From NCBI RefSeq assembly GCF_000484535.1, contig NC_022600.1, forward strand, positions 1,736,001-1,800,000: a DNA stretch of 64,000 nt, written 5' to 3'. Below, piece after piece: positions 23,319-63,579 of the stretch. The stretch is from Gloeobacter kilaueensis JS1 (GTDB lineage Bacteria > Cyanobacteriota > Cyanobacteriia > Gloeobacterales > Gloeobacteraceae). The notes beneath the pieces are model-generated. The model did no database searches and was not told the DNA's origin. It was given only the letters and a program-made list of their open reading frames with translations. The translations under genes were made by a program, and so were the position numbers. Each line of letters starts with the position of its first letter. The first letter of the stretch is position 1.

Positions 23319-24536
23319 TCAGAAGTCCATGCCTTTGGTGAGCCGGATTACGAAATCGGTCGGTGGCACCTTGAACTGGATAGGCTGGCGGCGGGTCTCG
23401 CTCTTCTGGTAGCGGCCACTCTGCTGCACGGTAGAACCGATGCCCTGCAGAACACTGCCCAACAATCGCTGTTCGATGGGGGCGTTGTTGAGCGCTCCAT
23501 AGCTCCCGGCGGCACCCCCGTAGGTGTAACTGCTGAGCGGCTGGGTCAGTTGCTGACCTGCCGCAGTAAGGGTGTTGGTGAGAAACGTGTCAAAGCCTTT
23601 CGGGGAGAGCGGGTCGGACACTTCCGCTGCCAGACCGCTCTGCGTGCCCTGCATCGCCACTACCCCGTCGAGGCTGCGCTCGATGCCGCCTGGTGTGACC
23701 AGGGTTGCGAAGGTTATCTCTACCCGACCGGCCTGCAGGTCGCTGACTGCACCGACCAGCCGTGAGCCGGTTGGAATCAGCACTTCGCCATCCAGACTGA
23801 CCGGTGCGGCGACCTCGGCGAACACTGGCGCATTCGCTCCGAAACCCGCCAGTCCCTGCGTCAGTCTGGCCGGAATTTCTGTTCCTGCCGTCAGGCGACG
23901 CCGGGGCGATGGAACCTGCTGCTGGGACACACCGGCACTCATCGAAGCGATGCCAGTAGCGTTTCCCAAACGGCCAGTCTCATCTGCCACGTACAGTGGC
24001 CGGGTCTGGGCTCGTCGCTTGAGGAGTTTCGTCAGTGCCGCATCCTTATCTTCCCTGGCCGCCAGCGCTGGACTGGGCAGCGCCGGTAGCCGGTAGGTGA
24101 CTGGTGTCGGCGGCAGGCTCTGAATCCTGGGTATTCGCTGCTGAGGCAGTACCGGGGCGCGCAACTGACTCGGCGGCGGTAGAGAGGGAGCCAGTGAAGT
24201 GGCTGGAGCTGGCTGCACTGGTCGGGCTGGTTGACTGGACATGGTCGGCTCCGATCTGGCCGGTCGCGCTGCTCTGGCCGTCCGGTGGTGCGCTGGTCCT
24301 CCGGCAGACCTGACCAGGGCCAGAAGCAACAGGGCGCTCATTGCCGCCCCGCCCCCGCCCACCAGCAGGATTCTGCCCCACAACCATCGGCGGACGGGCA
24401 ATCCATCCTCGTCATTGTCTTCGAGGCGGGTAAAGAAGCGCTTGACCACACTGACTCTCGATGCTTCCTGGGCCTTCACGGCACTGGCTGCCGAGGCGAA
24501 CCCGTTGCGTATCTGCTCAAGCTGGCTGGAGTTCAT
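23319..24536 (-). CDS. VirB10/TrbI-like conjugation channel protein
   Basis: About 405 residues from ATG 24536, with GGGGAG at a good distance; the frame opens at 24707, but the early part is not protein-like. The order is a cytoplasmic segment, one membrane helix (LLVGGGGAAMSALLLLALV), a Pro/Ala/Arg-rich periplasmic linker, then the VirB10 domain: LTAGTEIPARL, APVFAEVAAPVSLDGEVLIP, TGSRLVGAV and RVEITFATLVTPGG. VirB10 spans both membranes and links ATP use to channel opening. A promoter (TTGCAC-17-TACTAT on the minus strand) lies upstream and its -35 is half of a conserved palindrome. Confidence 0.75.
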   Translation of the reverse strand: MNSSQLEQIRNGFASAASAVKAQEASRVSVVKRFFTRLEDNDEDGLPVRRWLWGRILLVGGGGAAMSALLLLALVRSAGGPAHHRTARAARPARSEPTMSSQPARPVQPAPATSLAPSLPPPSQLRAPVLPQQRIPRIQSLPPTPVTYRLPALPSPALAAREDKDAALTKLLKRRAQTRPLYVADETGRLGNATGIASMSAGVSQQQVPSPRRRLTAGTEIPARLTQGLAGFGANAPVFAEVAAPVSLDGEVLIPTGSRLVGAVSDLQAGRVEITFATLVTPGGIERSLDGVVAMQGTQSGLAAEVSDPLSPKGFDTFLTNTLTAAGQQLTQPLSSYTYGGAAGSYGALNNAPIEQRLLGSVLQGIGSTVQQSGRYQKSETRRQPIQFKVPPTDFVIRLTKGMDF

Positions 24537-24565
24537 TGAATAGCTCCCCGGTTTGACATGGCTGC

Positions 24566-24604
24566 TATAGTAATGCCTGATGCGCAATAGTGCAAGCCGT
24601 GCAA
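24566..24604 (-). promoter_or_regulatory. Promoter of the VirB10-like operon with palindromic operator, copy 2
   Basis: On the minus strand TTGCAC and TACTAT are 17 bases apart, a good sigma-70-type promoter 30 or so bases before the ATG at 24536. The -35 box is the right half of the palindrome at 24590-24604 (plus strand GTGCAAGCCGTGCAA). A protein binding there would block or recruit RNA polymerase directly. The palindrome also covers the start of the divergent transglycosylase gene. Confidence 0.65.
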
Positions 24605-25453
24605 AAATACTTCTGGTTGCTTGCCCCCGTCTTTGTTCTCGGACTTTTTCTACACAGAAATGAATCCTCGTCAGACTTCGGGGCTTCTTCGGGTACGAGG
24701 GGTCCATTCGATGCCACTCAGCCCTTCGGCGTGCAAACTCCGAATGCCGCCCCTCACCTCGCGAAAATGTCTCTGGGCAATTTCGGCATCATCCAGGGGG
24801 CAGTCAATATGCGCTGCCTCAAGCCGCCGCTGGCGGTCGCCGCTCTCATCGCCGCGATCCGCAGTGTCGAGAGCGACAACGACCTGCTGATCGTCGGTTA
24901 CGACTGGCGGCCCACTGCCAGACAGAATCCCGCCAACCTATCGACTTTCAAAGGTCCGACCATCGGCCTGGGCCAGATCCAGGAGCCCCGCGACGAGGGC
25001 AACACCGTCATCGTCAACCGTAACCTGTATACAAAGCTGGTGCAGCGCTCCAGGTGTTTTCCGAAAAACAGCAACTGCCAGGTGCTCCACGCCGACGGCT
25101 ACGTCAACCAGGCCACCATCCGCTACGACACTGGCCAGCAGGTGCAGTACCTGGAGACCACCGAGGGCGTCGGCGTCTATCAAAAACGCGCCGATCGGCT
25201 CTACCGCTGGGCCATGTCCCACGCTCTGGGTGAGAAGAACCCGCCATCCTACGATGTGCGCAGTGCCGACATGCAGAATGTCGCCATCTATGGTGTGCTC
25301 GCCCTCGAAAAAGGTCTGGAGCGCAACGCTTATGCCGCCCTGGTTGGCTACAACGGCTTCGAGCCCTACGCCACCAAAGTCCTGTCGAGAGTGCCAGTGC
25401 CCCAGTCCCAGATAGACTGCCTCAGCGCTTTCTATCATGGGGCTAGACCCTGA
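24590..25453 (+). CDS. VirB1-like lytic transglycosylase
   Basis: This protein of up to 287 residues starts at GTG 24590 or 24599; neither has a strong ribosome site. An N-terminal membrane or signal segment (YFWLLAPVFVLGLFL) is followed by a transglycosylase-like domain: ALIAAIRSVESDND with the likely catalytic Glu, a GLGQIQ motif (cf. GLMQI), and YAALVGYNGFEPYATKVL near the end. VirB1-type enzymes open peptidoglycan for the secretion channel. It is divergent from the VirB10-like gene and shares its operator, which fits joint control. Confidence 0.65.
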   Translation: MQAVQKYFWLLAPVFVLGLFLHRNESSSDFGASSGTRGPFDATQPFGVQTPNAAPHLAKMSLGNFGIIQGAVNMRCLKPPLAVAALIAAIRSVESDNDLLIVGYDWRPTARQNPANLSTFKGPTIGLGQIQEPRDEGNTVIVNRNLYTKLVQRSRCFPKNSNCQVLHADGYVNQATIRYDTGQQVQYLETTEGVGVYQKRADRLYRWAMSHALGEKNPPSYDVRSADMQNVAIYGVLALEKGLERNAYAALVGYNGFEPYATKVLSRVPVPQSQIDCLSAFYHGARP

Positions 25454-32304: not shown

Positions 32305-33351
32305 TCAGGCAACTGACAGTGCGGATCGTTCTTGCAACCAGTGATAGAGTCCCCGCACGTTGGCCATGCGAGGCTCAGGACAAACCATCAGCAAGCCTCT
32401 GGGTTCCGGTTCGGTCGCCATCTCGATTACCCTTTCGGTCGCCATCCCAAACTTTCTGCTGAAGTGCTCGGCAAAGGCAGGCAGCACGGTCGTGGCACCG
32501 CCGCCGGTCAGCACCACCCGCCCTAGCGTCACCCCCTTCCAGGTCGTGGGCACCAGGTTGAAAATCTTCTCGCCGTAGGTGCGCATCGTCATCTGCAAGA
32601 TGCGCTGCAGGTCGATCACCTCGTTCATCCGCCGGATCTCGCCCGCCCCCGACATATACAGCCGCTCGATCATCAGGTCGCCTGGAAAATCGCCGGTCAT
32701 CCTTGCCACCTCCTGGCCGAGGAGTCCGTAGAACATCCGCATCCCCTCGTCCCGGTGGACGGAGCGCTCGGCAACGAACTCGTCATTCTCTACCAGACAC
32801 AAACCCACCGTAGAGTGCCCGACATCGACGATGCCCACCGTTTCATGCGCCCCCAACAGCCCGAGGCTCCTCAGGTGGAGGTACGTGCAGTAGCCCTCCG
32901 GCAGCACCCGGTTCGGATCGAGTTCTACCCTGACCCTGTAACTGCTCTTGCCCAGGGCGAAGGCATGCTCGCCAGAAAGCAACTGAGCCAGTGCGTCGCG
33001 GTGCGTCGCCCACATCTGCACCGGCAGTGAGCTGCCGAGGGTGACGTGCAACTGGTCGTAGCTCAGGCACTCGCAGATTTTGCCGAGGGCCGCCATCGCC
33101 AGCAGCTTTACATCCTGGCTAACCTTGCCACCGCCCCAGCAGGCTCGCGCAAATTCAGAAGCACGGGCGTCACTTCCAACGATCCGGCACTCGCTGCTCA
33201 TCGTGACTTGCAAGAAAGGCTTCTGCCCGAACCCCGGCTCGCGGGGCGGAGCCACAGCCGAGTCAATCAAGCCCACCAGCTTCTGACCGTGTAGCTGGCT
33301 GCAGTACTTGAAAGCTCCCATACCGACATCCAGGGCAATCCTCAAGTGCAT
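32305..33351 (-). CDS. ParM/StbA-like plasmid segregation actin
   Basis: About 348 residues from ATG 33351 (GGAG upstream; GTG 33360 possible). Actin-fold motifs: ALDVGMGAFKY (phosphate 1), VGIVDVGHSTVGL (phosphate 2), and VVLTGGGATTVLP (adenosine). ParM polymerises with ATP and pushes plasmid copies apart. The PRTRC cassette elsewhere also uses an actin-like protein (protein D in that scheme), so this gene might serve it. A conserved palindrome lies 47 bases upstream. Confidence 0.8.
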   Translation of the reverse strand: MHLRIALDVGMGAFKYCSQLHGQKLVGLIDSAVAPPREPGFGQKPFLQVTMSSECRIVGSDARASEFARACWGGGKVSQDVKLLAMAALGKICECLSYDQLHVTLGSSLPVQMWATHRDALAQLLSGEHAFALGKSSYRVRVELDPNRVLPEGYCTYLHLRSLGLLGAHETVGIVDVGHSTVGLCLVENDEFVAERSVHRDEGMRMFYGLLGQEVARMTGDFPGDLMIERLYMSGAGEIRRMNEVIDLQRILQMTMRTYGEKIFNLVPTTWKGVTLGRVVLTGGGATTVLPAFAEHFSRKFGMATERVIEMATEPEPRGLLMVCPEPRMANVRGLYHWLQERSALSVA

Positions 33352-33397
33352 GGTCGGCACTCCGCTAAGATCAGTCTTGAGGGAAGTTTAACAGAAA

Positions 33398-37190: not shown

Positions 37191-40100
37191 CTAGCCTCCT
37201 CCATTAATCCAGGCTTGTAGATCTGCGTTACTCATCTTTTTAAGAACCTTGTCATTGAGAACTATCTTCTGCCCTTTCTTGTTGAAGATCTCGAAAGAGA
37301 GTTTTTTGCTATAACGGTCTGTCATATTTCTTATCCAGCCAATGTTGTCATCCACGCATTCAGGATCGGTAAATGAGTAGCGCATGTGCTCGACATTCTT
37401 ATCTCCTACCCTGGCTCCACCCTCCTTATTCACTAACCTCATATAGTCCTCGAATTGTCCTTTATCTTCCTCAGGTAACTTTCCAGATATGTTCTTGATC
37501 TCTTGCAATGCTATTTGTTTCTTTCCTTCTACTTCTATTGTAGTGATTCTATCTATCTGGCGTGTCCCTTGCAAACCAAACTTCTCCTTGTCCAGTTTGA
37601 CCTGACTGAGATCCCCCTCCTTACCATACATTCGCTCATAATACGCCTCCGTCAGATTCCCCTTGTCTTTCGAGTTCAATTCCTGAAAATTCGGGTTGTT
37701 GTCGATGTTCTTCGTCAGCTTCATCAACTCCCGATGCGCTGCCTCCTCGTAAGGCACTCCCGGATACTCTTCAGCTAACTTCTTGCGATCCGTCATCGCG
37801 GAGAGAACTTTTGACTGAAACTGCTCCTTCAGCGCATGACGCACCTTATCTTCATCGACACCCTTGAACGGAATTTTGCCGGATTTGAGCATCTGCTCCA
37901 TCTGTTGTCTCGGATTTTTGATGCCTGCACGCTCCAGCATCTGCAAGTACGGACCCAGCGACTTTTTTGGTTCTGTCAGTGTCGCCATCACACTGGCAGG
38001 TGTGGCCTCTTGAGCAAATGGGGGCAACTTCGGCCTCGCTCCTTCGCGGATGCGCCAGCGGCGCGTCTGCAGGTCGAACTGTTTGCCCTGACGGTATTCC
38101 TGTAGAAATTCTTCTTTACTTTTGAACTGTCCTTTGTAGGCTCCGAGTTGGTCCCAGGCGGCATTGCCTTCTGCTTCCCAGACGCGGCGCTCGCCAGAAG
38201 TCGGTTCGGCATCTTCTTCTGCATCCCGCCGTCTGGCTTCCGGTGGTTCTTTTTGCTTCTGAGCCCTATCGTTCTGGTCGTCCTGGCGACGGTGAGGCTC
38301 GCTTTGTGGTTCTCTAGTAGGCAGATTGACTGGTGGCTCACCTGGTTGTGGCAGCGGCTTCTCACCAGTTGGTACGGGCGACTCATCTGCTGGTGCTCTG
38401 CGAGCAGGCGGCAGGCTGCCTTCTTCACCCGCCGGATGCCCTTTGTGACCCTTGCCCGCTAACAGCCGGTCAATGAGCAACTGCCCACCGATGCCCAGCG
38501 CTTTTGCCAGATGCTGACCTGATTCCTCTAACTGCTCAGGCGTCTTTGCCGTCGCCATCTCTACAGCAAAGTCTTTGAGTTCTTCCAGCAGGGCTTTAGC
38601 CTGTTCACCGTACTGTTCGATCGCCCAGGCGGTGAGGGCGGCATCGGCGACAGGACCAAGCGGTGTCAGGTTGACGAGGGCCATCCCGCCGGTGACAGCG
38701 GCTCCGATGGCGATGTTGGTCGGGTCGAGCAGTTGGGCTAGAAGTTGCTTTCCTTCTTCGGGCAGGTAGCGGGCGGTGTAGCCGAGCACCGAGCCAAAGC
38801 GTTCGACCGGGTTCATCTGCTCGACCGGTTTGCTGGGCTGAGCGTTGGCCGAGGCAGCAGGTGTTGTGGGTGGGGAAGTGTTGGGATGTGGGGAAGCAGA
38901 GGGAGAGGGATTGGGGCCGCCGATGGAGCGGGCTTCTGGCCCCATCGCCAGGTAGACAGTCTCGGAATCCTGACGGGTTTCCAACGTCTGTGCAGATTCG
39001 TTTCTGGCTGGTTGCTCGTCCGGGTTGTCTTCAGGCTTTTTGGCGTCGTCCGGCCCGTCATAATCCTGGGGGTCAACCAGATTCTGCTGTGTCCCATCGG
39101 GATCTTCCACTTCAGCAGGCTCTTGTTCTTGATCTGCTTCAGCCTCTGGGTTTGCTAGTTCTTGCTGTCCATCTGGATCTTGCAGCTCAGGCGGCTCTTG
39201 TTCTTGCTCTTCGAGGTCCAATTCTAATTCTTGTAAATTGTTTACCTGTGCTTCTTGTTCCTCGTCTGGCGAATCTTCGTCCAGGACAGCGTTTTCGTCT
39301 TGCTTCCCAGCGTCTGCCTCGGTATCTACTTCCTCAAAAATGTCCGTCAGCCATTGCGCGCCCTCTGAACCTGCGCTTTCAGCCGTATCAGCCGGGGCAG
39401 CCTCTTGCGGTGACCACTGCGTGGGCTGCCAGGCGCTCCAGTCCACCAGCGAAGTCGTTGTATCCGACTGCCCTGCTACGAGTGAAAAAGGAGCAGCAGC
39501 CCACCAGGAGCTGTCTTCAAGAGTGCCGGTTCCCACTTCCCTACCAGACTTCTCTGGAGCATTCTCAGGCGGATTGAGTGGGGGATGGTTCCCAGCAAGG
39601 ATGCCCTGCCAGTCGGCCACGCTTGCCGACGGCTCAAAAGCAGGTGGGGAGCTCGTCTCAGCCAGCAACACCTCGTCTGAAATGAGCAGGGCTGCTACAG
39701 ATGCTTCTTGCTGCCTTTGGGCATCATCCTTGCTCTCGGGATTATCCTGGTTGTCCTGGATCTCCTGCGCACCGCTGACTTCAGCAACCGAAGTTTCTTC
39801 CGTAAAACCCGCTCCCTCCGGCCATGACTGCTCTGCTCCAGGCCAGGCAAAAGCAGAAAAATAGCCGATGTCTGTTTCGGTGCGGCTGTCAAAAAATTGT
39901 CCTTTTCCATGCAGATCACCAGAGCCGTTCAGTTCCAGAACTGGTCCCAAAAGCGGCAGGTGCTCTTCCTGGGTGCCTGCGTTGGTAGCTTGTTCTTCAG
40001 CCTTGAAGGAAGATGGTTGCACCTGCAACTTGCCCGTTTGCTCTTCTCCCTCTGTTGCCTGTTGCCAGAGAGGAGGAGCGTCCTCTTCTCCACCCCCATC

Positions 40101-40874
40101 CGCAGGGATACTGTTGCTGTTGGCGAAGAGGGTTGCTGACCATTCCTGCTCGGAAGGCCATGTCAACGGCTCGGAGTCAGACAATGCGCCGTCATCAGCC
40201 AGATCCATTGAGCTGAACAGATTCTCCGCCTCGGCGTCGATGCCTGTGTTCTGGTCTGGCTCCCAGCCTGCATCGAGTGAGAGCAGTTGCTCTTCGCCTG
40301 TGGGGTTCTGCTCGCCGTCGATGCCTGAATCGTCCGCTTCTAGATCCCGCAACTCAGCGATGAAGTCCGGCTCACCATCGCCGTCCGTGTCGGCACCCGG
40401 CGCGAACAGTTCGGCGAGAGAGCCATCCACGTCCTCTACAGCACTATCGAAATCAAAAGCCTCGCCTGCGCCATCGTCGTCCATATAGAACGAGTCGTCA
40501 GCAGCTTCTCCATCACCATCGGTGCCTGCATCGCCGATGTCCAGGTCGAACGGCGCATCGTCGCTATCCGTGTTGTCCGCAGCTACCCCGAAAGGGTCAG
40601 TACAAGGATTGTCTTCACCGTCTGCGATGTCGAACGGGTCGAACAGGGCGGGGACAGAACCCTCTCCATAGTCGCCAGTCTGCTCAGGGTCAGGTGGCAG
40701 ATAACCGTAGGCAGCTCCGATATCAAAAAGCTGTGAACCGCCCGCAGAAGCAGGATCGAGCCCTTCTGCGGACTGGTTATCGGTTTCGGTAGACGGGGGA
40801 GAGCTGGCTTGCTCACTGTGCGACGGGAAGACGTAATCCCAGTCCTCGGGCACGGGAACGGCAGCAGACGCCAT
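37191..40874 (-). CDS. Large polymorphic toxin with C-terminal PD-(D/E)XK-type nuclease tip
   Basis: This 1227-residue, very acidic protein has no signal peptide. Residues 1-300 are Asp-rich with calcium-loop-like DTDGDGEPD and DAGTDGDGEA stretches, then Pro/Glu/Gln low complexity to about 690. Residues 700-810 (LLDPTNIAIGAAVTGGMALV...AKTPEQLEESGQHLAKAL) resemble the helical pre-toxin segment of type VI or contractile-injection effectors. The last 280 residues are the tip: YEEAAHREL, DKGNLTEAYYERMY, and DRITTIEVEG...ALQEIKN with D...ExK for a PD-(D/E)XK nuclease. The immunity gene follows after 4 bases. No VgrG, PAAR or injection genes are in the window. It lies 119 bases after the rpoB-like gene. 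Confidence 0.65.
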   Translation of the reverse strand: MASAAVPVPEDWDYVFPSHSEQASSPPSTETDNQSAEGLDPASAGGSQLFDIGAAYGYLPPDPEQTGDYGEGSVPALFDPFDIADGEDNPCTDPFGVAADNTDSDDAPFDLDIGDAGTDGDGEAADDSFYMDDDGAGEAFDFDSAVEDVDGSLAELFAPGADTDGDGEPDFIAELRDLEADDSGIDGEQNPTGEEQLLSLDAGWEPDQNTGIDAEAENLFSSMDLADDGALSDSEPLTWPSEQEWSATLFANSNSIPADGGGEEDAPPLWQQATEGEEQTGKLQVQPSSFKAEEQATNAGTQEEHLPLLGPVLELNGSGDLHGKGQFFDSRTETDIGYFSAFAWPGAEQSWPEGAGFTEETSVAEVSGAQEIQDNQDNPESKDDAQRQQEASVAALLISDEVLLAETSSPPAFEPSASVADWQGILAGNHPPLNPPENAPEKSGREVGTGTLEDSSWWAAAPFSLVAGQSDTTTSLVDWSAWQPTQWSPQEAAPADTAESAGSEGAQWLTDIFEEVDTEADAGKQDENAVLDEDSPDEEQEAQVNNLQELELDLEEQEQEPPELQDPDGQQELANPEAEADQEQEPAEVEDPDGTQQNLVDPQDYDGPDDAKKPEDNPDEQPARNESAQTLETRQDSETVYLAMGPEARSIGGPNPSPSASPHPNTSPPTTPAASANAQPSKPVEQMNPVERFGSVLGYTARYLPEEGKQLLAQLLDPTNIAIGAAVTGGMALVNLTPLGPVADAALTAWAIEQYGEQAKALLEELKDFAVEMATAKTPEQLEESGQHLAKALGIGGQLLIDRLLAGKGHKGHPAGEEGSLPPARRAPADESPVPTGEKPLPQPGEPPVNLPTREPQSEPHRRQDDQNDRAQKQKEPPEARRRDAEEDAEPTSGERRVWEAEGNAAWDQLGAYKGQFKSKEEFLQEYRQGKQFDLQTRRWRIREGARPKLPPFAQEATPASVMATLTEPKKSLGPYLQMLERAGIKNPRQQMEQMLKSGKIPFKGVDEDKVRHALKEQFQSKVLSAMTDRKKLAEEYPGVPYEEAAHRELMKLTKNIDNNPNFQELNSKDKGNLTEAYYERMYGKEGDLSQVKLDKEKFGLQGTRQIDRITTIEVEGKKQIALQEIKNISGKLPEEDKGQFEDYMRLVNKEGGARVGDKNVEHMRYSFTDPECVDDNIGWIRNMTDRYSKKLSFEIFNKKGQKIVLNDKVLKKMSNADLQAWINGGG

Positions 40875-40992: not shown

Positions 40993-43900
40993 TTACTTGA
41001 TTTTTCCAAAGCGCAGGTCTAAAGCGGTGCTGCGCAACTCCCCGATCAGCGCCTCGAAAGCCAGCGGAATGCCTGTTCTGTTCAGAACAGGCAACTTCCC
41101 CATGCACAGATCGTGGTGGCACTTGAGACGGGACTCGGGGTCATCGGATTTGACGGTCATCATCTCGTGCAGGGTGAAAGCTGCGCCGTGGGCCATTAGT
41201 GCCCAGGCTTCCATCTCGCCGATGCGCTGGCCGCCGCCCGCTTTTCTACCGGCCACCGGTTGGCCGGTCACCAGATCGTAGGCTCCTTCGCTGCGGGCGT
41301 GCTCTTTTTTGGCGACCATATGCTCGGCGGCGAGGATGTACTGGCTACCGACGCAGACCGGTCGGTCGTAGGTCTCGCCGGTTCGACCGTCACGCAACCA
41401 CACACGTCCACCAGGCAGAATCCAGGGAGCAACTTGCCTAGCCTTTTCCAGTTCCCGGTACAGCAAATCTTCGGACCTGTCGTCGTACACCTCGTCGAAC
41501 TGCGAGACCGTGTAGGAACGGCCCAGCACACGGGCGCACAGGCCCAGTTGCGTCTCATAGACCTGACCAAGGTTCATGCGGGAAGGCACACCTAGCGGGT
41601 TGAGGAGGATATCGAGGGGCGTTCCGTCGGGTAGCAGCGGCATGTCTTCTTCGGGGGCGATGAGAGTGATGATGCCCTTGTTACCGTTGCGACCGGAGAG
41701 CTTGTCGCCGACTTCTAACTGCGTGCGGTGCGCCACGGTGATGATCGCCCTGGCGATGATGTCCGGTGGCAGATCTTCGGTGACTATCCGCACATCGATG
41801 ACTGTGCCTTCCTCGCCCATACCGGCAACAGCGTGGCGTTCGCGGTAACGACCGCCGAAGTAGCCCAGCATCTCGGCCAGTACTTCCTCGCCGCTCAGCT
41901 CGCTTCTGGTCTTGCGGGGGCTGAGCCTGCCCGCGATGATTCGCCCGTTGCTGATTTTGGAGCCGATGAAGGGCAGGCCCGTTCTGGGATTGAGATGGGC
42001 GTTGGTGGCGTCGGCGGGGGCATCGACCAGCAGGCTGGCCGCGAAGCGTTCGTCCCCCAGTTCGGTGCGCCGCAGATCGACCTCGTGGGTTTTCATCATG
42101 ACCGCTGAGAGCAGGCCCTCGCGCACAACCCGCTCGCTGATCACGATTCCATCCTCGAAGTTGTAGCCTTCGTAGCTCAGATAGCCCACCCACAGGTTGG
42201 CTCCCAGGCTGAGGATGCCGCCGCAACTCGCGTACCCGTCCGCCAGCAGCTCTCCCGCTTCGACGTACTGTCCAACCTCGACCACCGGGCGCTGGTGGAT
42301 CTGCACTTTGGCGCTCGTGCGCATATTGCCGGGCCGGAACTTGATCAGCTCCAGCCGCTGCCCGCTTACCTGAATCTGCCGGGCACAAACCCGCTCGACT
42401 TTTCCATCGACGGGCGAGTAGAGGTTGAAGCCCGACTCCCGCGCAACCGGCTCCTCGCCGCCGCTCAGCACCAGAGGCACCTGAACCCGCCAGGGAGCAA
42501 CTGCCTGACCCATATGCCCGGCACTCATCACCGCCCGCGCTGCGTCCGTGTGCTCCAGAAACGGTGTACACACCAAAGAAGCTGAGAATCCAGCGGTCGG
42601 TGTCGGCCATGCCCACCGCGCCCCCGTGCCTGCTCGCAACTGGCCAGCAGACAGCTCGACCCCTGGTTGTATGCAGGTGAGATGCTCCTCGTCGCTCCAG
42701 ATAATCGCTCGCTCACCCGTCTGCTGATCGATCACCGCTGTACCCAGACGGCCCTCCTCGTCCACAGCGACGTAGCGGGCAAGGTGGTAGCGAAGTCCGA
42801 CACTCTGGCCCTCGCCAGCATCGATCGGGCAGAGGCGACCGAAGTGCGACGGATGTACGTTGCGGGCCTGATCCGGAACCCGCTCTTTTTTCAGGCCACC
42901 CTTGCCCAGCAGCGTCACGCGCCGTCGATGCGCCAGAGCCGCCAGGGGGTTGGTCTGATCGACCGCCTGGGAGGTGGGGCTGGTTTTGAGAAACACTGCC
43001 ACCACCCTGCCGATGTCCAGCTGGATCACTGGCTTTACCGGCATACACAGGCTCCGCCACTTGCGGGCGAATATCTCGAGATAGCGATGCACCTCCCGCC
43101 CGATCTGGCGGCCTACCGGGTAGAGGATCTTGTGGGCAAGGCCGTCCGTCTCGTCGGGTGGCGGAGTATCGCGCACCCAGGCTGACCAGGCGCGCCAGAG
43201 GAGTTCGAGATCCGGCCACCTCATCCATAGCCCCTGGGTGAGCGGTAAGCTCCGGGTGGCGAAGGGTGCAAGTCTGCTATTCACCCGCTGCCTGCCGTAA
43301 GTTCCCAGATACATCGAAGCGAGTTGCTTCTCGACGCCGCTGTCCTCGCAGTCGAGCCATTCTCGCCACTGCCGGGTACTGACGGTGATGTGCGCCCCGA
43401 GCCGGACAGTGGTCTTCTCGCCTACTGCCTCGATCTTCAGATGCGCTCCCCGTTCTCCCAGTAGCTGCAGCAAGTGTCGGATCCTGCCGTCCGTCTGGCT
43501 CGATTCCCAGTAGAGGCCAGGGGCGCGCAGCAGCTGGTGGATCACCACCCGCTCGACGCCATCCAGCCAGAAGGTCTGTTCCGGTCCCAGCATCGGCAGG
43601 TCTCCGCAGTGCAACCAGCTGGAGATACCGTTCAAGATGCACTCTGCCTCCAGCCTGCAGCGCCAGGATTGTTCTGTGCGCCTGATTTCACTCCAACCGG
43701 GTGTCCTGGCCCAGCGCAAATTTCCGGAAAATTCCAGCTGCCACCGACCGCACTCGGTCTTGAGCACCCCCAGCTGCACCAGTAGCGCCGGTAGCTGTCG
43801 ATTGCAGAATGCTATCCAGGAACGCGAATGGACGCCCAGGAGCGGCCAGCTTCCCGGTGGGCCAAGGCGCTCTTCGATCGCAATGCTCTGCTGCCAGTTG

Positions 43901-44001
43901 CTGCTCGTTCGAGCCGCCGCTTCCCGACCCCGGTCAGTGGCCCTTGCGTCTGGCTGGAAGATCGCTGCTTCGCCGTCTGGCTGATGAAATGGCTGTTCCA
44001 C
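40993..44001 (-). CDS. Divergent second RNA polymerase beta subunit (RpoB-like)
   Basis: About 1002 residues from GTG 44001 with AGAGGG six bases upstream; the frame opens at 44202, but that part covers the promoter. The catalytic half is well kept: DQTNPLAALAHRRRVTLLG and HPSHFGRLCPIDAGEGQSVGL (rifampicin/fork region), GYNFEDGI, VGDKLSGRNGNKGIITLI with both active-site lysines, LNPLGVPSRMNLGQVYE, and GGQRIGEMEAWALMAHGAA...TVKSDD. The N-terminal lobes are shorter and divergent; housekeeping cyanobacterial RpoB is roughly 1100 residues. The position equal to E. coli Ser531 is Thr. No rpoC-like gene is in the window, so it would have to pair with host beta-prime subunits or act otherwise. Confidence 0.85.
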   Translation of the reverse strand: MEQPFHQPDGEAAIFQPDARATDRGREAAARTSSNWQQSIAIEERLGPPGSWPLLGVHSRSWIAFCNRQLPALLVQLGVLKTECGRWQLEFSGNLRWARTPGWSEIRRTEQSWRCRLEAECILNGISSWLHCGDLPMLGPEQTFWLDGVERVVIHQLLRAPGLYWESSQTDGRIRHLLQLLGERGAHLKIEAVGEKTTVRLGAHITVSTRQWREWLDCEDSGVEKQLASMYLGTYGRQRVNSRLAPFATRSLPLTQGLWMRWPDLELLWRAWSAWVRDTPPPDETDGLAHKILYPVGRQIGREVHRYLEIFARKWRSLCMPVKPVIQLDIGRVVAVFLKTSPTSQAVDQTNPLAALAHRRRVTLLGKGGLKKERVPDQARNVHPSHFGRLCPIDAGEGQSVGLRYHLARYVAVDEEGRLGTAVIDQQTGERAIIWSDEEHLTCIQPGVELSAGQLRAGTGARWAWPTPTAGFSASLVCTPFLEHTDAARAVMSAGHMGQAVAPWRVQVPLVLSGGEEPVARESGFNLYSPVDGKVERVCARQIQVSGQRLELIKFRPGNMRTSAKVQIHQRPVVEVGQYVEAGELLADGYASCGGILSLGANLWVGYLSYEGYNFEDGIVISERVVREGLLSAVMMKTHEVDLRRTELGDERFAASLLVDAPADATNAHLNPRTGLPFIGSKISNGRIIAGRLSPRKTRSELSGEEVLAEMLGYFGGRYRERHAVAGMGEEGTVIDVRIVTEDLPPDIIARAIITVAHRTQLEVGDKLSGRNGNKGIITLIAPEEDMPLLPDGTPLDILLNPLGVPSRMNLGQVYETQLGLCARVLGRSYTVSQFDEVYDDRSEDLLYRELEKARQVAPWILPGGRVWLRDGRTGETYDRPVCVGSQYILAAEHMVAKKEHARSEGAYDLVTGQPVAGRKAGGGQRIGEMEAWALMAHGAAFTLHEMMTVKSDDPESRLKCHHDLCMGKLPVLNRTGIPLAFEALIGELRSTALDLRFGKIK

Positions 44002-44027
44002 CGCTTGCCCTCTCGCGTGCCCGCAAT

Positions 44028-44062
44028 CGTAGACCCATAGCGAGCAACATGCAAGCCTTGCA
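44028..44062 (-). promoter_or_regulatory. Promoter of the rpoB-like gene with palindromic operator, copy 4
   Basis: The palindrome ATGCAAGCCTTGCAT is at 44048-44062. On the minus strand its right half, TTGCAT, forms a -35 box followed after 17 bases by TACGAT, about 30 bases before the GTG start at 44001. The arrangement is the same as at the VirB10-like promoter. Confidence 0.65.
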
Positions 44063-44163
44063 TGAGTGCAAATTATTGCGAGGTCATGGTCAGCCTGCCG
44101 ACGTACACCATGCACTCCGACGCAGGACCAATCTGTGACCTGACCACAAATTCGTCGCCACTG

Positions 44164-44196
44164 GAAGCATAAATCTGCTGAAACGGCAGTTTTATG
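44164..44196. repeat. CATAAATCTGC inverted repeat; right-hand copy of a 15-mer direct repeat
   Basis: CATAAATCTGC (44168-44178) and GCAGTTTTATG (44186-44196) form an 11-base dyad with one mismatch and a 7-base spacer. The 15-mer GAAGCATAAATCTGC at 44164-44178 is identical to 46766-46780 on the other side of the nuclease gene. The size, two 11-base arms with a short spacer, recalls a tyrosine-recombinase core site, though the sequence is not dif-like. Confidence 0.55.
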
Positions 44197-44245
44197 GCTC
44201 AAGTTGCAACACGCTTCTTTTTTTCCTGCAGCAGGGTCAGCAGCT

Positions 44246-46672
44246 TTAGGGGAAAGTGAAGCGTGCTACCACCGCCTCGTGATCGCTGGCCTGATTGACA
44301 AACTCCGAATCGACGTGAACGATGTCGATTTCCGCTTTAGTTGACAGGTAGGGAGAGACCAGAATGTGGTCGATTGCCTGGCTGTTGCCCTCGTAGATGT
44401 AGGTGTAACGGTCGTTGGCGGCCACTTTTTCGATCAGGTTGGTGAGGGTGGTGCCTTTGAGGGTAAGCAGCGGCTGGGAAAACTCGAAGTCGTTGAGATC
44501 CCCGAGCACAACGATGCTCGCTTGGCTATCCAGGGCAAGGATGCTGCTGACGAAGGAGTTGATCACGGTAGCCTGGCTGACTCGCTGGGGCTGGGAGTTG
44601 AGCACCGGCGGTTGGGCCGCACCGAACAAAGCCGTGTCGCCACCTTTGGAGTTGAGGTGATTGGCAATGACAAATAGATGCTGGCCGTTGAAGAGGAATT
44701 CACCGGCGAGCGGTTTGCGGCTGGTGCTGAAGGCTGTGTTGGTCGGATCGATGCGGCCAGGGCTGTAGGTCAACTGGGGACCACCGCTGCCCGTTGCTGC
44801 GGTTGTCGCAACGGTGGAGCCGCCGCCGGGCCGGTCGATGAAGCTGATCCGTGCCGGATTGAATAGCAGCACCTGACGAATATTCCCGCCTGGCTGGCCG
44901 CCGTCTTGATCGTTGATGGGGTCAATCTGGCGGTACTGGTAGGCGGGACCACCGGCGCTGGTGATGGCACTGGTGAGGGCAGCGAGAGTCTGGCTCGCAT
45001 CGACGACGCCGTCATCGGTGGGACCGGAGTTGTCCTGGATCTCCTCGATGCTGAGAATATCAGGCGCTTTGAGATTCTTGGCGATGTAGCTGGCCAGAGT
45101 TTGGATGCGGCTGCCGGCGGCGGTATTGAAGTTCTCGAGGTTGAAGGCAGCGACGGTCAGCTGCTTGGTGCTTCCTACCAGAGCAGTGCTCTCCTGGGTC
45201 AGGCCGCCCACAGTGACCGAAGGAAGTGCTGCCGTATTCAAGATCTTGAAATTGCCACTGCTGTAATCGACGATGCCGACGATGCTCGCGTTAAAGCGGT
45301 CTGCGACGTTCAGCTTGGGGGGATTGGAGACAAGGGAGGGAGAAAGAATCAGCCGCTCAGGGTTGAAATCCGTTGCTCCAATCGCAATACCGCCGCGCAG
45401 GGTGCGTCCGCTGGCATTGCTGCCGTTATCGCCAAGCACGGCAATCTCGCCGCTGCTGTTGGTCGGGCCGACCACCACGGCGTTGTTGATTTGCACCCGC
45501 ATCCCTTCGAGACTCTCGTAGAAGTCGATGCCATCGCTCGCCGGGTCGAAGACACCGCTAGTGTTGACGTTGCCGGTGGCAGTGGCGTCGTCCTCGATGA
45601 TCAGGTTCGGGGGAATGCGTCCCCCGCTGCCGATCACCGTGGCGGCGGGTAAGGCATTGCCCGTAGAGAGCGTGGTGATTGTCGGAGTAATGATCTCGGT
45701 GGTCGAAAGATTGCCGGAGGTGCTGCCGCCGCTCACATACTCGCTGACGGTGCCGCTTACCTGAAGCGAGCTGCCGACGCTGACGGTGGGAGTACTGCCG
45801 GTGTAGACAAAGATGCCCTCGGAGGTGGCTGGGTCGCTGTCGGAAGTGGGATCTTGCAGGTAGAAGCCGTTGGAGCGTAGCGCTGTGACGATACCAGGAA
45901 TGTTGCTCACAGCCTGATTGTTCTTGGGCGAGAGGTGCGCTGCCCCTTGAATATCGTGGATGCGCGTTGCTGTCCCTGAGCGCAAGGAGGTGATCCAGCT
46001 GGTGTTGCTGCCAGCCGGGTTCGGTGCGCCGGGAGTAGCGCTGCTGGAAGCGGCGTCAGCGGTCCAGTTGGTAGCAAGAGTGGCGTCGCCAGTATTACCG
46101 CCACTGTAGGCACTGAACTTGGCAGAGTTTGGTGTGGGGGTGCGCGGGAAGCTGTAGAAGGTCGTGCCCTGGGCATCGACCAGTTGAGGAACATCCGTCG
46201 AACTGCCGTTGGCAAAGGCTCCCGTGGTACCGCTCCAACCGGCGGTGCGGGTGACAGCAAAGCTGCCGCTGTTATTGAGGGAGGAGACTTCCAGGCGATA
46301 GTCACCGCCAGTAGGGTTGTAGCTGAGGTCAGAAACGATCGTGCCATCGACATCGCCCCCGTTATAGACGACGATCAGCGTCCCGGCCCGTAGAGAAGCA
46401 AAGCCGCTACCGGCGAGGGTGATGCTGAGCGAGCCGTTGCCGTCGATCAATTTGTGGTTTTGCAGGTTGAGGTTGTCGGTGACGACAAGGATCTCTACCC
46501 ACTCCTTAGCCCCACTGCTGCCTTGAGAAAATTCGTTGATGATGACATCGCTGCTGGTGGCCGCCCCCACAGCGCGACAAAGAGCAAGTAGCCCAACTCC
46601 CGTGCTGAGCAGTCCCAGTTTGAAGTGCCGCTGCCAATGTCGCAAAGCCTGATTCACCGCCGCGCTCGCCAT
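44246..46672 (-). CDS. Secreted lamin-tail/endonuclease-exonuclease-phosphatase nuclease
   Basis: About 808 residues from ATG 46672 (GGAGA close upstream; an ATG at 46738 has none). The N-terminal hydrophobic segment LGLLSTGVGLLALCRAVGAA is a likely signal sequence. A lamin-tail-like domain follows (VIINEFSQGSSGAKEWVEIL), then an OB-like DNA-binding region (GIVTALRSNGFYLQDPTSDS), then the EEP domain with LSIEEIQDN (catalytic Glu), VIANHLNSKGGD, VVLGDLNDFE (Asp-Asn) and QASDHEAVVARF (Asp-His). Such enzymes degrade extracellular DNA, for nutrient use or matrix turnover. Identical 15-base repeats flank the gene. Confidence 0.85.
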   Translation of the reverse strand: MASAAVNQALRHWQRHFKLGLLSTGVGLLALCRAVGAATSSDVIINEFSQGSSGAKEWVEILVVTDNLNLQNHKLIDGNGSLSITLAGSGFASLRAGTLIVVYNGGDVDGTIVSDLSYNPTGGDYRLEVSSLNNSGSFAVTRTAGWSGTTGAFANGSSTDVPQLVDAQGTTFYSFPRTPTPNSAKFSAYSGGNTGDATLATNWTADAASSSATPGAPNPAGSNTSWITSLRSGTATRIHDIQGAAHLSPKNNQAVSNIPGIVTALRSNGFYLQDPTSDSDPATSEGIFVYTGSTPTVSVGSSLQVSGTVSEYVSGGSTSGNLSTTEIITPTITTLSTGNALPAATVIGSGGRIPPNLIIEDDATATGNVNTSGVFDPASDGIDFYESLEGMRVQINNAVVVGPTNSSGEIAVLGDNGSNASGRTLRGGIAIGATDFNPERLILSPSLVSNPPKLNVADRFNASIVGIVDYSSGNFKILNTAALPSVTVGGLTQESTALVGSTKQLTVAAFNLENFNTAAGSRIQTLASYIAKNLKAPDILSIEEIQDNSGPTDDGVVDASQTLAALTSAITSAGGPAYQYRQIDPINDQDGGQPGGNIRQVLLFNPARISFIDRPGGGSTVATTAATGSGGPQLTYSPGRIDPTNTAFSTSRKPLAGEFLFNGQHLFVIANHLNSKGGDTALFGAAQPPVLNSQPQRVSQATVINSFVSSILALDSQASIVVLGDLNDFEFSQPLLTLKGTTLTNLIEKVAANDRYTYIYEGNSQAIDHILVSPYLSTKAEIDIVHVDSEFVNQASDHEAVVARFTFP

Positions 46673-46765
46673 TTCTATCTCCGCCTGTTGCAAACCGCAC
46701 GGAGCAGCGTAGCGTGTCTGGGAGTACAGAGCATGCATCCTGGAGCACCAGTAGCCTTAACGGGC

Positions 46766-56460: not shown

Positions 56461-57585
56461 ATGTTCACAATCACGACAACTACCGCCGTTTTCGCCCGAC
56501 AGCTTGCGACCGTTGCCCGGATCGTTCCCTCCAGAACAAACGACCCTATTTTGACAAACGTCCTCTGTCGCGCAGATCGTTCACCGTTCCCCCAGGTTAC
56601 GCTCATCGGTTTTGATCTTGAGCTGGGTATCGAGACCAGATTTGAAGCCGGTGTGTCTGCCGCCGGCACCACCACATTGCCTGCTCGCTTGCTCGCCGAC
56701 ATCCTTACCCAGCTCCCCAATGAACCCCTGACGATTGAGGTGTCGGACACTCACGGCATCGACATCCGTTGCCCCTCCGGGCATTACCAGCTCCAGGGTG
56801 CTTCTGCTGAGGAGTTCCCCAGCTTGCCCAGGATCGACTCCACTCCGCTTGTACTTCCATTGCCGGTCCTGCAGTCTGGCTTTGGGCTCACTGTGTTTTC
56901 CGCTTCTACCGAAAAGACCAAACAGATACTCAACAGCGTCTGCCTGAGAGGACTACCCGATGGCCTTGAATTCGTTGCCATAGACGGACATCGTCTGGCG
57001 TATCGCTATATCGAACTCCAGACTCCCGTCACCGACATCACCCTGGTCTTGCCTCGACGCTCCGTGCGTGAACTCCAGAAGCTGTTGGTTAAACAGAACG
57101 CCGATTCTGTCAGGCTGCTTTTCGACGAAAAGCACATGAGCTTTCAATTTCCCAAACAGATCCTCACTACCAGGCTTTTGTCTGGTCGCTATCCCGAGTA
57201 TCCGCGTCTCCTTCCCCAGTCCTTCAAAATCACGGTCGAGGCCGATCGCAGAACCTTGTGTTCTGCTCTTGAACGCATTGCTGTCATTGCCTCACAGAAG
57301 CACCACATCTGTAAGTTTGAACTCTCTTCAAGTGGTGCCCTCACCCTTTCCGTCAATGCCCTGGATAAAGGTCAGGCTCGCCAGACCGTCTTCGTCGATT
57401 ATGCTGGCCCGGAATTTACCATCGCCTTCAACTGCAAGTACGTGCTTGAGGGTCTCAAGACCTTTGATTCTCGAAAAGTAGTCCTCAATTTCAATGGTCC
57501 CGACAATCCTGCGGTCTTCTCACCGTCAGGTGACGAACTCCATCATCGCTATTTGGTCATGTCAGTCTCCCTCAGAAATGCTTGA
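56461..57585 (+). CDS. dnaN: DNA polymerase III sliding clamp (plasmid-borne)
   Basis: The length, 374 residues, is normal for a beta clamp. Three clamp domains can be followed: ARQLATVARIVPSRTNDPIL and LPARLLADILTQLP in the first, SGFGLTVFSASTEKTKQILN then SVCLRGLPDGLEFVAIDGHR in the second, LLSGRYPEYPRLLP with RRTLCSALERIAVIA in the third, and the end HRYLVMSVSLRN in place of the usual YLIMPMRL. The clamp holds the polymerase on DNA. As a plasmid copy it may favour plasmid replication or repair. A terminator follows. Confidence 0.85.
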   Translation: MFTITTTTAVFARQLATVARIVPSRTNDPILTNVLCRADRSPFPQVTLIGFDLELGIETRFEAGVSAAGTTTLPARLLADILTQLPNEPLTIEVSDTHGIDIRCPSGHYQLQGASAEEFPSLPRIDSTPLVLPLPVLQSGFGLTVFSASTEKTKQILNSVCLRGLPDGLEFVAIDGHRLAYRYIELQTPVTDITLVLPRRSVRELQKLLVKQNADSVRLLFDEKHMSFQFPKQILTTRLLSGRYPEYPRLLPQSFKITVEADRRTLCSALERIAVIASQKHHICKFELSSSGALTLSVNALDKGQARQTVFVDYAGPEFTIAFNCKYVLEGLKTFDSRKVVLNFNGPDNPAVFSPSGDELHHRYLVMSVSLRNA

Positions 57586-60574: not shown

Positions 60575-61432
60575 GTGAACAGTCCTGTCTGCTGCCCACC
60601 GGCTCTCGCTGTCGGTGATTGCCTGCTGTTCTTCGAGCGACTGCTCGACCGGTTGCCCATCGCTGCTGCCGGTGGGTGTATCGAGGCGTTCATCCGCATC
60701 CTCAAGCAGCTGGAGTTGATGATCTGCTATCGGCATTTTTTTGCTGAAGAGTATGCCTGCTCCACTGCTTCTTCAGAAATAGGCATCAGCCGCCTCCAAA
60801 GAGAGCGGCTTGCCCGCGAGACCAGTGAGTTGCCTGCCTCGCCCCGCGAAATAGAGTTCCTGCGCTTGGTCAACGAGAAGTTGTTTCCGCTCCTCGATGA
60901 ATATCTGACGGACGACGACTTTGACGTTATTGCGCAACCACAGACAGTACCCATCCCGTGCATCGGTTGGGCTTTCGACTACGAGGCTGACCTTGAAGGC
61001 TACAGCTTTCCCTACCGCCTCGCACTCACACTGATCTTGGATGCTATCGAACCTGACGAGGAGGTGCGCCACTTTGCTGAAAGTCTCGTACCTGGTTGCC
61101 TCTCGGCTTCTGCTCACTGGTCTTTGTTTCAGACCGCCTGCACTGCTCTGGGTGGACATTACATCGACATCCCCGAACTGTTTGACTCGCTCACTGCCGG
61201 TACCGGCAACTTCTGGATCGATTACACACCGGATATATGTGCGGACAACATCGCCTGGACCATCGAACATCTCGACTATCTGCACACGCAGTTTCGTGAG
61301 TGCGAAGCGATCATCGCTCGAGTCAGTGCCGCCGCCGAGTGGCTCGGCGAAGATCCTGAGCGATGGCAGCCAGTCCTCGAAGCCTGGGTGCTGGCCGGTC
61401 ACAGTCAACCCAAGAAAAAGCGTTCTCCATGA
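60575..61432 (+). CDS. PRTRC system protein F-like
   Basis: This 285-residue protein from GTG 60575 has GAGG upstream. It is mostly helical. The C-terminal segment NFWIDYTPDICADNIAWTIE, followed by a long helix and AEWLGEDPERW, matches my recollection of PRTRC protein F (a W-T-(V/I)-E segment, then a helix ending in a WL(E/G) turn). Its stop overlaps the next gene's ATG (ATGA). Its biochemical role is not known. Confidence 0.5.
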   Translation: MNSPVCCPPALAVGDCLLFFERLLDRLPIAAAGGCIEAFIRILKQLELMICYRHFFAEEYACSTASSEIGISRLQRERLARETSELPASPREIEFLRLVNEKLFPLLDEYLTDDDFDVIAQPQTVPIPCIGWAFDYEADLEGYSFPYRLALTLILDAIEPDEEVRHFAESLVPGCLSASAHWSLFQTACTALGGHYIDIPELFDSLTAGTGNFWIDYTPDICADNIAWTIEHLDYLHTQFRECEAIIARVSAAAEWLGEDPERWQPVLEAWVLAGHSQPKKKRSP

Positions 61433-62094
61433 AAAGCAAGCTGGTCGATTCGATCATCGACCGAGCCAGATCCCTGCTGGCCCACGTCGATGATCAGTTG
61501 ATGTTCATCGATCTTTCTGGTTCTGCTGCCCAGTGTCGCTACATCAGTCCGCTCGATTTTCGGGCAGCAGCCAGTAAGATTCCGGCTGAAACCGGCTGGC
61601 TGCGGCCAGGGATCGTCCGTTGGGGACGCTCAGGACAGACGTCCTGGTTTGTTCTGTTCATCCCGCCGGGCGTTCACTCGTTTTTTATTCAGGCCCAGGG
61701 CAACGCGGTCGAGCAATTTGCGGTACCGATGCCGGGGTTGGTCTACTCCACTTTTCAGCAGCACATGATCTGGGCAATCAAGGAGCAACAATTCAACCCG
61801 ACTGCTCAGATCTTTCACGTTCCTTTACCCAACATCAGCAGCCGGGGCCTTATCTGCTTTGGCGAAAACACTCGTCCTGATCCCGGCAACCCTGATCGTT
61901 GCTGGCAGTTGTTCCTGGCAAGCCCCTTCAACCACCATCAGGCGGACGGCAAGTCCCGCAGCCACCCGAAGAACATCATTCCGAAGCTAACTGCCCTTGC
62001 TCAAAGCGAGACAAAGACGTATCCCCTCGATGACCTGATTGCCTGCAATCAGAACGTGGATCAGGCTTTCCAGGCTGCAGGAGGTCACCTGTGA
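61429..62094 (+). CDS. PRTRC system protein B-like, E2-like fold
   Basis: This 221-residue protein starts at ATG 61429 within the previous gene's stop. The central part FHVPLPNISSRGLICFG resembles the active-site region of ubiquitin-conjugating E2 enzymes (PN(I/V)...G.(I/V)C), with Cys as the candidate thioester residue. Comparative work on prokaryotic ubiquitin-like systems has placed PRTRC B among E2-like proteins. It overlaps the JAMM gene by one to four bases. Confidence 0.65.
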   Translation: MKSKLVDSIIDRARSLLAHVDDQLMFIDLSGSAAQCRYISPLDFRAAASKIPAETGWLRPGIVRWGRSGQTSWFVLFIPPGVHSFFIQAQGNAVEQFAVPMPGLVYSTFQQHMIWAIKEQQFNPTAQIFHVPLPNISSRGLICFGENTRPDPGNPDRCWQLFLASPFNHHQADGKSRSHPKNIIPKLTALAQSETKTYPLDDLIACNQNVDQAFQAAGGHL

Positions 62095-62699
62095 TGATTC
62101 GCTACCTTCCCCTGGCTGGCCCTTTGCCCCCAGCTTTGCCCTACGGCTGGGATTATCTCTTTGCTCAGGACGGTGTGGGACTGCGCGCCCGCCGCACTGG
62201 CCTGGAAGTCTGTATGCCGCTGAGCTGTGGGGCTATTCGCCTGCAGGGTCTTCGACCCCTTCGGCCTTACTTCTCTCTTGAATATCCCCGCGTCCCGGCC
62301 ACCTGCCTGCAGGCCATCGTCGCCCACTCCCTGGCCGCCACTGATCACGATGGTCGCCCTCTCGAAGCGTTGTTCTACCTGAAATACAGTCTGGGAGCCT
62401 GGCAGTTGCGCGCCCCGGCGACGAGCGCCACCAGTACCAGCGTTATCGCTGTCGATCGCCATGACAGCGACGCCGATGTCGAGTTGCATAGCCATCACGC
62501 CATGACGCCCCGCTTCTCGCTGCGCGACGACGAGGAGGAACAGGGTTTTCGCATCTACGCCGTCATCGGCCACTTGTTTACGACCCCGGCTCTCCACGTC
62601 CGGGTTGGCTGTTTTGGCCACTTCTGGTCCATCCCGGCGGCCAGCGTCTTCGAGATGCCTGTCGATATCATCGACTACCTGGAGATTCAGAATGGTTGA
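62094..62699 (+). CDS. PRTRC system protein A-like, JAMM/JAB peptidase
   Basis: About 201 residues from ATG 62094 (GTG 62091 possible; GGAGG upstream). The text HSHHAMTPRFSLRDD fits the JAMM motif HxH-x7-S-x2-D exactly, giving the two zinc His, the Ser and the zinc Asp. A Glu in EALFYLKY could be the catalytic base. JAMM proteases remove ubiquitin-like tags or mature them. It overlaps the ThiF gene by eight bases. Confidence 0.75.
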   Translation: MIRYLPLAGPLPPALPYGWDYLFAQDGVGLRARRTGLEVCMPLSCGAIRLQGLRPLRPYFSLEYPRVPATCLQAIVAHSLAATDHDGRPLEALFYLKYSLGAWQLRAPATSATSTSVIAVDRHDSDADVELHSHHAMTPRFSLRDDEEEQGFRIYAVIGHLFTTPALHVRVGCFGHFWSIPAASVFEMPVDIIDYLEIQNG

Positions 62700-63579
62700 T
62701 CTCTCCTATGCCAGAGCCGTGCCTCTCCTCACCCTCAAGGCCCGCCAGACAACCATTGTCCAGGTAGGGGCGGGCGGCACCGGTGGCTGGCTGTATCCGC
62801 ATCTGGTCCGCCTGTTGCGTGTCCTGCTCGATCGCGGTGAGAGTGTGCGGCTGTTGCTGTGCGATCCCGACATCGTCGAGGAGAGCAATCTGATCCGGCA
62901 GAATTTCTGTGCTGCCGAACTCGGTATGAACAAGGCCGAGGCTCTTGCTTTTCGCTACCAGGCCGCCTGGGGTCTGGAATTGCCCGCGCTGAACGTTCCT
63001 TTTTCCCGGAAGATCCTGGGTGACAACTTCCAGTACGCCCACGACCACTTCTTTGTGATCGTCGGCTGTGTGGACAACGCCGCCGCTCGCCTGACGATCC
63101 ACCAGTTGCTACTCAATATCGCGACAAGGAGCAACGTATCGAATATTCTCTGGATAGATGCGGGCAACCACGTAGACACGGGCCAGGTGCTCGTGGGCAA
63201 CATCGCCGAACCGGACCTGCTCGCCCATAGCTTCGATACACCTGGCCATTCCCACTGCGCTCTGCTGCCCTCCCCGGCCCTGCAGCATCCGGAACTACTC
63301 GTCCCCCAGCTGGAGGAGAATCCTGACGCTGATCTCAGCTGCGAGGAGTTGCTCCGCCTGAAAACCCAGAGCCTCACTATCAATCTGGCAATGGCTTCTC
63401 TGGCAGCCGATTACCTGCTGCACCTGCTGGTCACCCGCAACCTCCGGCGCTTCGCCTCGTACCTCGATATCCCGAGTGGAGCCCGCCGCAACCGGTACAA
63501 CACCCCCGAGCACCTCGCTGCTGCTGTCGGCCTCTCGCCGGACAGCCTCTTTTCTGCTGCAGGTGCCGCTATCGAATAA
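62692..63579 (+). CDS. PRTRC system ThiF/E1-like adenylating enzyme
   Basis: This 295-residue protein from ATG 62692 has GGAG upstream. The Rossmann motif IVQVGAGGTGGWLYPHLVRL, LCDPDIVEESNLIRQNF with the Mg Asp, Asn and Arg, and VIVGCVDNAAAR are the E1/ThiF adenylation signature. A Cys in GHSHCALLPS is a candidate for the thioester position. It would activate the C-terminus of a ubiquitin-like protein with ATP. It is the last gene of the overlapping F-B-A-ThiF run. Confidence 0.85.
   Translation: MVDLSYARAVPLLTLKARQTTIVQVGAGGTGGWLYPHLVRLLRVLLDRGESVRLLLCDPDIVEESNLIRQNFCAAELGMNKAEALAFRYQAAWGLELPALNVPFSRKILGDNFQYAHDHFFVIVGCVDNAAARLTIHQLLLNIATRSNVSNILWIDAGNHVDTGQVLVGNIAEPDLLAHSFDTPGHSHCALLPSPALQHPELLVPQLEENPDADLSCEELLRLKTQSLTINLAMASLAADYLLHLLVTRNLRRFASYLDIPSGARRNRYNTPEHLAAAVGLSPDSLFSAAGAAIE

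Follow-up and report, generated by a model that had tools for sequence, protein, structure and literature searches.

A strongly diverged second, orphan RNA polymerase beta gene on a putative mobile element integrated in the Gloeobacter kilaueensis chromosome

In Gloeobacter kilaueensis JS1, a window of 64,000 nucleotides (positions 1736001-1800000 of a single 4,724,791-bp contig) contains rpoB2, a gene for a divergent second RNA polymerase beta subunit (Table 1). Its open frame comprises 1069 codons on the minus strand (40993..44202) and offers three in-frame start candidates, TTG 44202, GTG 44115 and GTG 44001. Among these, GTG 44001 is preceded by the SD-like AGAGGG, and we regard it as the most plausible start, which would give 1002 amino acids; the start at 44062 assumed in the initial annotation is out of frame. 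The gene has a GC3 of 0.73, similar to that of the adjoining genes. Its recognition as a second beta gene is borne out by Pfam matches over cut-off to Rpb2_3 (E 1.5e-18), Rpb2_6 (E 6.4e-80) and Rpb2_7 (E 1.5e-15) and by the presence of a separate housekeeping rpoB in the genome. The Pfam protrusion and lobe domains find no match, though the N-terminal half aligns (GDLPMLGPEQTFWLDGVERVV), and the protein stays below the NCBIfam rpoB equivalog cut-offs TIGR02013 and NF001616 (569.3 versus 801.15 and 603.6 versus 896 bits).

Upstream of the gene, one promoter-like site was found against 0.1 expected in shuffled sequences, which is weak evidence for a promoter. The palindrome that follows this site had been described as plasmid-wide. 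It is indeed perfect but single-copy: the 17-mer occurs once in the 92-kb element that surrounds rpoB2, its near matches are at chance level, and a search for recurrent palindromes with 6-nt arms found none above two copies.

Table 1. Features of rpoB2 and of the surrounding element (window positions, except where genome positions are given)
Feature	Position	Strand	Remarks
rpoB2, divergent second RNA polymerase beta subunit	40993..44001	-	1002 aa from the most plausible start, GTG 44001; Pfam Rpb2_3/6/7
Catalytic region of RpoB2: NFED (E813/D814), GDKLSGRNGNKG (K1065, K1073), R1106, H1237	41310..42160	-	RpoB alignment; coordinates approximate, from codon numbers
Rifampicin cluster I equivalent of RpoB2, FLKTSPTSQAVDQTNPLAALAHRRRVTLLGKGGL	42892..42993	-	L511T, F514A, S531T; RpoB alignment
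Perfect palindrome CATGCAAGCCTTGCATG	44048..44064		between promoter-like site and GTG start of rpoB2
Promoter-like site TCGGCA-18-AATAAT	44072..44101	-	upstream of rpoB2; 9/12 matches; weak
ExeM/NucH-like extracellular nuclease with lamin-tail domain	44246..46738	-	upstream codirectional neighbour of rpoB2
Very acidic 1227-aa protein without family match	37191..40874	-	directly downstream of rpoB2, codirectional
TrwB/TraG-like coupling-protein match	3029..4504	-	weak; below Pfam cut-off
TrbI conjugation protein	23319..24707	-
ParM/PRTRC_D-like actin	32305..33360	-
Second DnaN (sliding clamp)	56461..57585	+	nearest relatives on large cyanobacterial plasmids
Prok-E2_D (PRTRC-type) protein	61363..62094	+
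ThiF (PRTRC-type) protein	62605..63579	+
tRNA-Gly (UCC) gene	genome 1732185-1732255		integration site of the element
Tyrosine-recombinase-like frame	genome 1732440-1733585		begins 185 bp past tRNA-Gly; R, RHxxR and GH...Y motifs identified by eye

The G. kilaueensis JS1 chromosome, CP003587, measures 4,724,791 bp (PMC3806779). Since the window lies within the contig of this published chromosome, rpoB2 is chromosomal, and its initial assignment to an accessory replicon fails, because this contig constitutes the entire chromosome. In fact, the gene sits inside an element of about 92 kb (genome 1732185-1824464, about -3815 to 88464 in window positions) that is inserted in tRNA-Gly(UCC). In the stretch from roughly 1732 to 1827 kb, G+C is only about 50-60%, down from about 62%, and a second copy of the 3' end of the tRNA gene lies at 1824412-1824464 (an exact match of 30 bp, and 94% over 53 bp). 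An att-type repeat at a tRNA gene thus occurs together with an adjacent recombinase-like frame, as in integrative elements; a Pfam search of this frame gave no match. Two congeners lack the element at the tRNA-Gly site and conserve its upstream flank, and the downstream flank has no match in congeners within the 10 kb examined.

Besides the proteins of Table 1, the element encodes a TraG/TraC/VirB4-like ATPase, a Toprim/CHC2 primase-like protein and a UvrD-like helicase; no relaxase was recognised among its scanned frames. The element DnaN shares about 32% identity with DnaN of large cyanobacterial plasmids. A host DnaN copy lies apart at genome 1290700, and an RHS-repeat protein of 1301 aa is encoded on the element outside the window. 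The whole is thus most plausibly a plasmid-like element of conjugation type that has inserted in tRNA-Gly. It appears uncommon among the 194 cyanobacterial genomes that we searched, since the VirB4-like protein has no relatives there at E<1e-60.

The genome holds two rpoB genes (housekeeping and rpoB2) and a single rpoC1, rpoC2 and rpoA each. Thus RpoB2 is an orphan: no rpoC lies beside its gene, as had been noted from the start, and beyond that no second rpoC1, rpoC2 or rpoA occurs anywhere in the genome. The beta-prime motif NADFDGD is absent across the 92-kb element as well, which leaves the host subunits as the sole available partners. The host's own rpoBC operon is split, with rpoB at 116 kb and rpoC1-rpoC2 at 4094 kb.

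To describe what RpoB2 has kept and lost we use the 219 alignment columns that are invariant among 26 diverse bacterial housekeeping RpoBs (E. coli and 25 others), with E. coli numbering. The initial annotation held that every hallmark of the beta active centre is kept. This stands for the motifs GYNFED, GDKLSGRNGNKG, LNPLGVPSRMN and GGQRIGEMEAWAL, which are all present, and for the catalytic residues, with E813, D814, K1065, K1073, R1106, H1237 and R678 retained in the alignment. It does not stand for the invariant columns at large, where 137 residues are kept, 78 substituted and 4 gapped; R540K, P564G, N568S, N684G, R687G and H1070N are among the changes.

The losses are spread unevenly along the protein. 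Retention amounts to 15/28 in residues 1-444, 3/8 in 445-505, 25/44 in 506-650, 20/35 in 651-830 and 12/29 in the flap (831-937), and reaches 31/36 in the second catalytic part (1030-1240), the best-kept region, and 31/39 in the C-terminal, beta-prime-binding end (1241-1342). In sum, 62 of 75 invariant residues are kept in 1030-1342 versus 75 of 144 elsewhere (Fisher p 8e-6, with positions treated as independent). The C-terminal clamp of beta is what holds beta-prime in known structures. A milder version of the same split is found in the betas of megaplasmids and, in part, in those of phages, so that it stems from the way constraint is distributed along beta; RpoB2 still shows this pattern, which speaks against free drift.

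As the first reading had it, RpoB2 is shortened and divergent in its N-terminal half, with about 25% identity versus 33-56% further on, and a segment of the lobe/gate loop, the LRPGEPPT...KRYD stretch, is missing. At the flap tip, AIFGEKA has become EMLGYFG, and L901, I905 and F906, the hydrophobic residues that contact sigma region 4 in E. coli, are replaced by V, M and L, still hydrophobic but altered. AlphaFold2 models of RpoB2 are poor (pLDDT 46 and 52, the latter with pTM 0.41 and confident only at about residues 501-890). By sequence, the closest solved structures are cyanobacterial RNAP betas; a Foldseek search with the poor model also ranks these best, at an uninformative TM of 0.35.

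The rifampicin pocket differs at L511T, F514A, S531T, P564G, N568S, I572R and R687G, the Thr at the E. coli S531 position having been read correctly at the outset, while H526, D516, Q513, R529 and L533 are unchanged. Several of the changed positions are known sites of rifampicin resistance in E. coli. Because the pocket differs at positions of resistance mutations, reduced rifampicin binding seems likely, and an altered rifampicin response of a polymerase containing RpoB2 is suggested.

Where does this protein come from? Over residues 400-1068, RpoB2 is about 41% identical to the housekeeping RpoB of its host and of congeners, and its top identities are similar for Gemmatimonadota and cyanobacteria, as a branch of this length would lead one to expect. 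In our trees this branch measures 2.4-10 changes per column and lies outside the cyanobacterial clade, its finer placement being unsupported. The possibility that the gene is simply the housekeeping rpoB, placed inside the host clade with no other copy in the genome, is therefore not borne out. A recent duplication of the host rpoB is disfavoured by the 41% identity, with no formal rejection by the AU test, in which groupings of RpoB2 with Cyanobacteriota (p 0.27), cyanobacteria (p 0.14) and Gloeobacteraceae (p 0.094) all survive. Before DGRTGE, RpoB2 carries FDE-x-Y/F/H, a short insert and W, in common with 22 cyanobacterial RpoBs and 13 from non-photosynthetic Cyanobacteriota, and FDE is absent there from the 18 other RpoB rows compared. 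This signature, from a single region, points to an origin within the phylum Cyanobacteriota.

No ortholog of RpoB2 was found in 145 class-level genomes with the full-length protein as query, nor in 386 Cyanobacteriota genomes with the N-terminal half (E<=1e-12). In IMG/VR, the single RpoB2 query gave no ortholog and an alignment query gave only beta-prime-fused or partial betas; in two of the contigs there, a single frame of more than 2200 codons encodes a fusion of beta and beta-prime. Matches in the plasmid database are mostly chromosome-like records or whole polymerases. Some records labelled as plasmids of Clostridioides difficile (99-150 kb), with a normal-looking rpoB, are probably mis-assembled closed chromosome pieces.

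These data support the reading of rpoB2 as a second, orphan beta with intact catalytic residues on mobile DNA. What might it do? RpoB2 comes without its own beta-prime and conserves the C-terminal clamp, so the simplest account is that it assembles with subunits of the host. If expressed, it would replace the housekeeping beta, a step that was proposed at the outset and that we find plausible, and join host alpha, gamma (rpoC1), beta-prime (rpoC2) and omega. The resulting polymerase would still catalyse RNA synthesis, which is likely given that the catalytic half is best kept, but its surfaces would be changed at the lobe/gate loop, fork, rifampicin pocket and flap tip. Such changes hint at different interactions with promoters, factors or inhibitors: promoter or sigma use, the binding of elongation factors, or sensitivity to inhibitors (antibiotics, phage proteins) could each differ, and the element would profit from the modified enzyme. 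We give this element-encoded alternative beta close to an even chance. It draws on the intact frame, the catalytic residues, the uneven retention and an actinomycete precedent (PMC5431353); against it count the substituted and gapped invariant columns, P564, N568, N684, R687 and H1070 among them, the missed NCBIfam cut-offs, the poor AlphaFold2 models and the lack of an ortholog.

The same features can be read otherwise. RpoB2 could derive from a captured rpoB that no longer has a function and is drifting on the element, its frame still open by chance. The very long branch, the lack of orthologs, the strongly diverged lobe and flap and the missed rpoB cut-offs fit such decay, but more than 1000 codons have stayed open with a GC3 bias like that of adjoining genes, all catalytic residues are kept and constraint is strongly uneven between domains (p 8e-6), so that we consider it rather unlikely. 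It is also unlikely, in our view, that RpoB2 is a decoy or brake that ties up host beta-prime or alpha, or else a phage protein or drug directed at RNAP, in slow or inactive complexes, and thereby regulates host transcription or guards element and host from phage takeover without being a polymerase subunit itself. A decoy would be in keeping with the preserved beta-prime-binding end (31/39), the missing gate-loop segment and the R540K, N568S, N684G and R687G changes at universal fork, rifampicin-pocket and DNA/RNA-contact residues, on an element that lacks its own beta-prime; it would have no need of the second catalytic part, yet this is the best-kept one (31/36), K1065, K1073, R1106 and H1237 included.

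We think it very improbable that RpoB2, in the manner of Nonomuraea rpoB(R), serves mainly to provide a polymerase insensitive to rifamycin or sorangicin. The seven pocket changes, several at known E. coli resistance positions, would suit that role, and so would the actinomycete precedent (PMC5431353). However, divergence spans the whole protein rather than the pocket alone, five pocket residues including H526 are unchanged, and profile searches recognised no antibiotic-resistance genes among the neighbouring frames.

In the textbook view, bacteria have one core RNA polymerase whose specificity is altered only by sigma factors. Going further than an alternative beta as such, we envision, tentatively and at somewhat less than even chances, that the element remodels the host RNAP through a lone re-engineered beta, diverting transcription to itself or shielding it from inhibitors; this would be the first such orphan beta in cyanobacteria, with a divergence well beyond that of the actinomycete paralogs. 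If so, RpoB2 would form a natural subunit-swap polymerase with a rewritten lobe, fork, drug pocket and flap, and thus offer a natural test of how dispensable the 'universal' residues of beta are.

Our literature search found no report of rpoB2, and the text of the G. kilaueensis genome paper mentions neither rpoB nor RNA polymerase; nor did the literature searched contain the combination of an orphan, integrated-element-borne and extremely diverged beta. Its separate traits do have counterparts. With housekeeping cyanobacterial RpoB (Synechocystis 8gzg/8gzh; the G. kilaueensis copy at 116 kb) RpoB2 shares family, domain order, catalytic residues and the FDE-x-Y insert, but its lobe is shortened, its flap tip and fork are changed and the cyanobacterial C-terminal tail is absent. 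In the actinomycetes Nonomuraea gerenzanensis, with rpoB(R), and Nocardia farcinica, with rpoB2, an extra rpoB alone gives rise to two RNAP forms, again with beta duplicated and no additional beta-prime reported (PMC5431353). These paralogs carry resistance-type changes and reside in the host genome, whereas RpoB2 is extremely diverged and on an integrated mobile element; H526N, the central change of rpoB(R) (PMC5431353), does not occur in RpoB2, where H526 is kept.

The betas of Bacillaceae megaplasmids (Pontibacillus ALD_SL1, NZ_CP062975; Priestia pFDU301A, NZ_CP045273) are, like RpoB2, element-borne and divergent with an intact active centre. However, they are less diverged, keeping 190 and 195 of the 219 invariant residues, and their megaplasmids encode an adjacent beta-prime and, in Pontibacillus, alpha too. 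Caudovirales phages of the mReC group possess multi-subunit RNA polymerases with beta and beta-prime (PMC7481178). Their betas, and those of Vibrio phage D69 and Yersinia phage GN1, resemble RpoB2 in that catalytic residues are kept and many universal ones lost (76-86 of 219 remain in phage betas); they are accompanied by or fused to beta-prime and are not of cyanobacterial type, whereas RpoB2 bears the cyanobacterial signature and lacks its own beta-prime. In fact, phage betas are changed at several of the positions altered in RpoB2 (511, 514, 540, 568, 684 and 687), and such changes thus appear compatible with an active polymerase.
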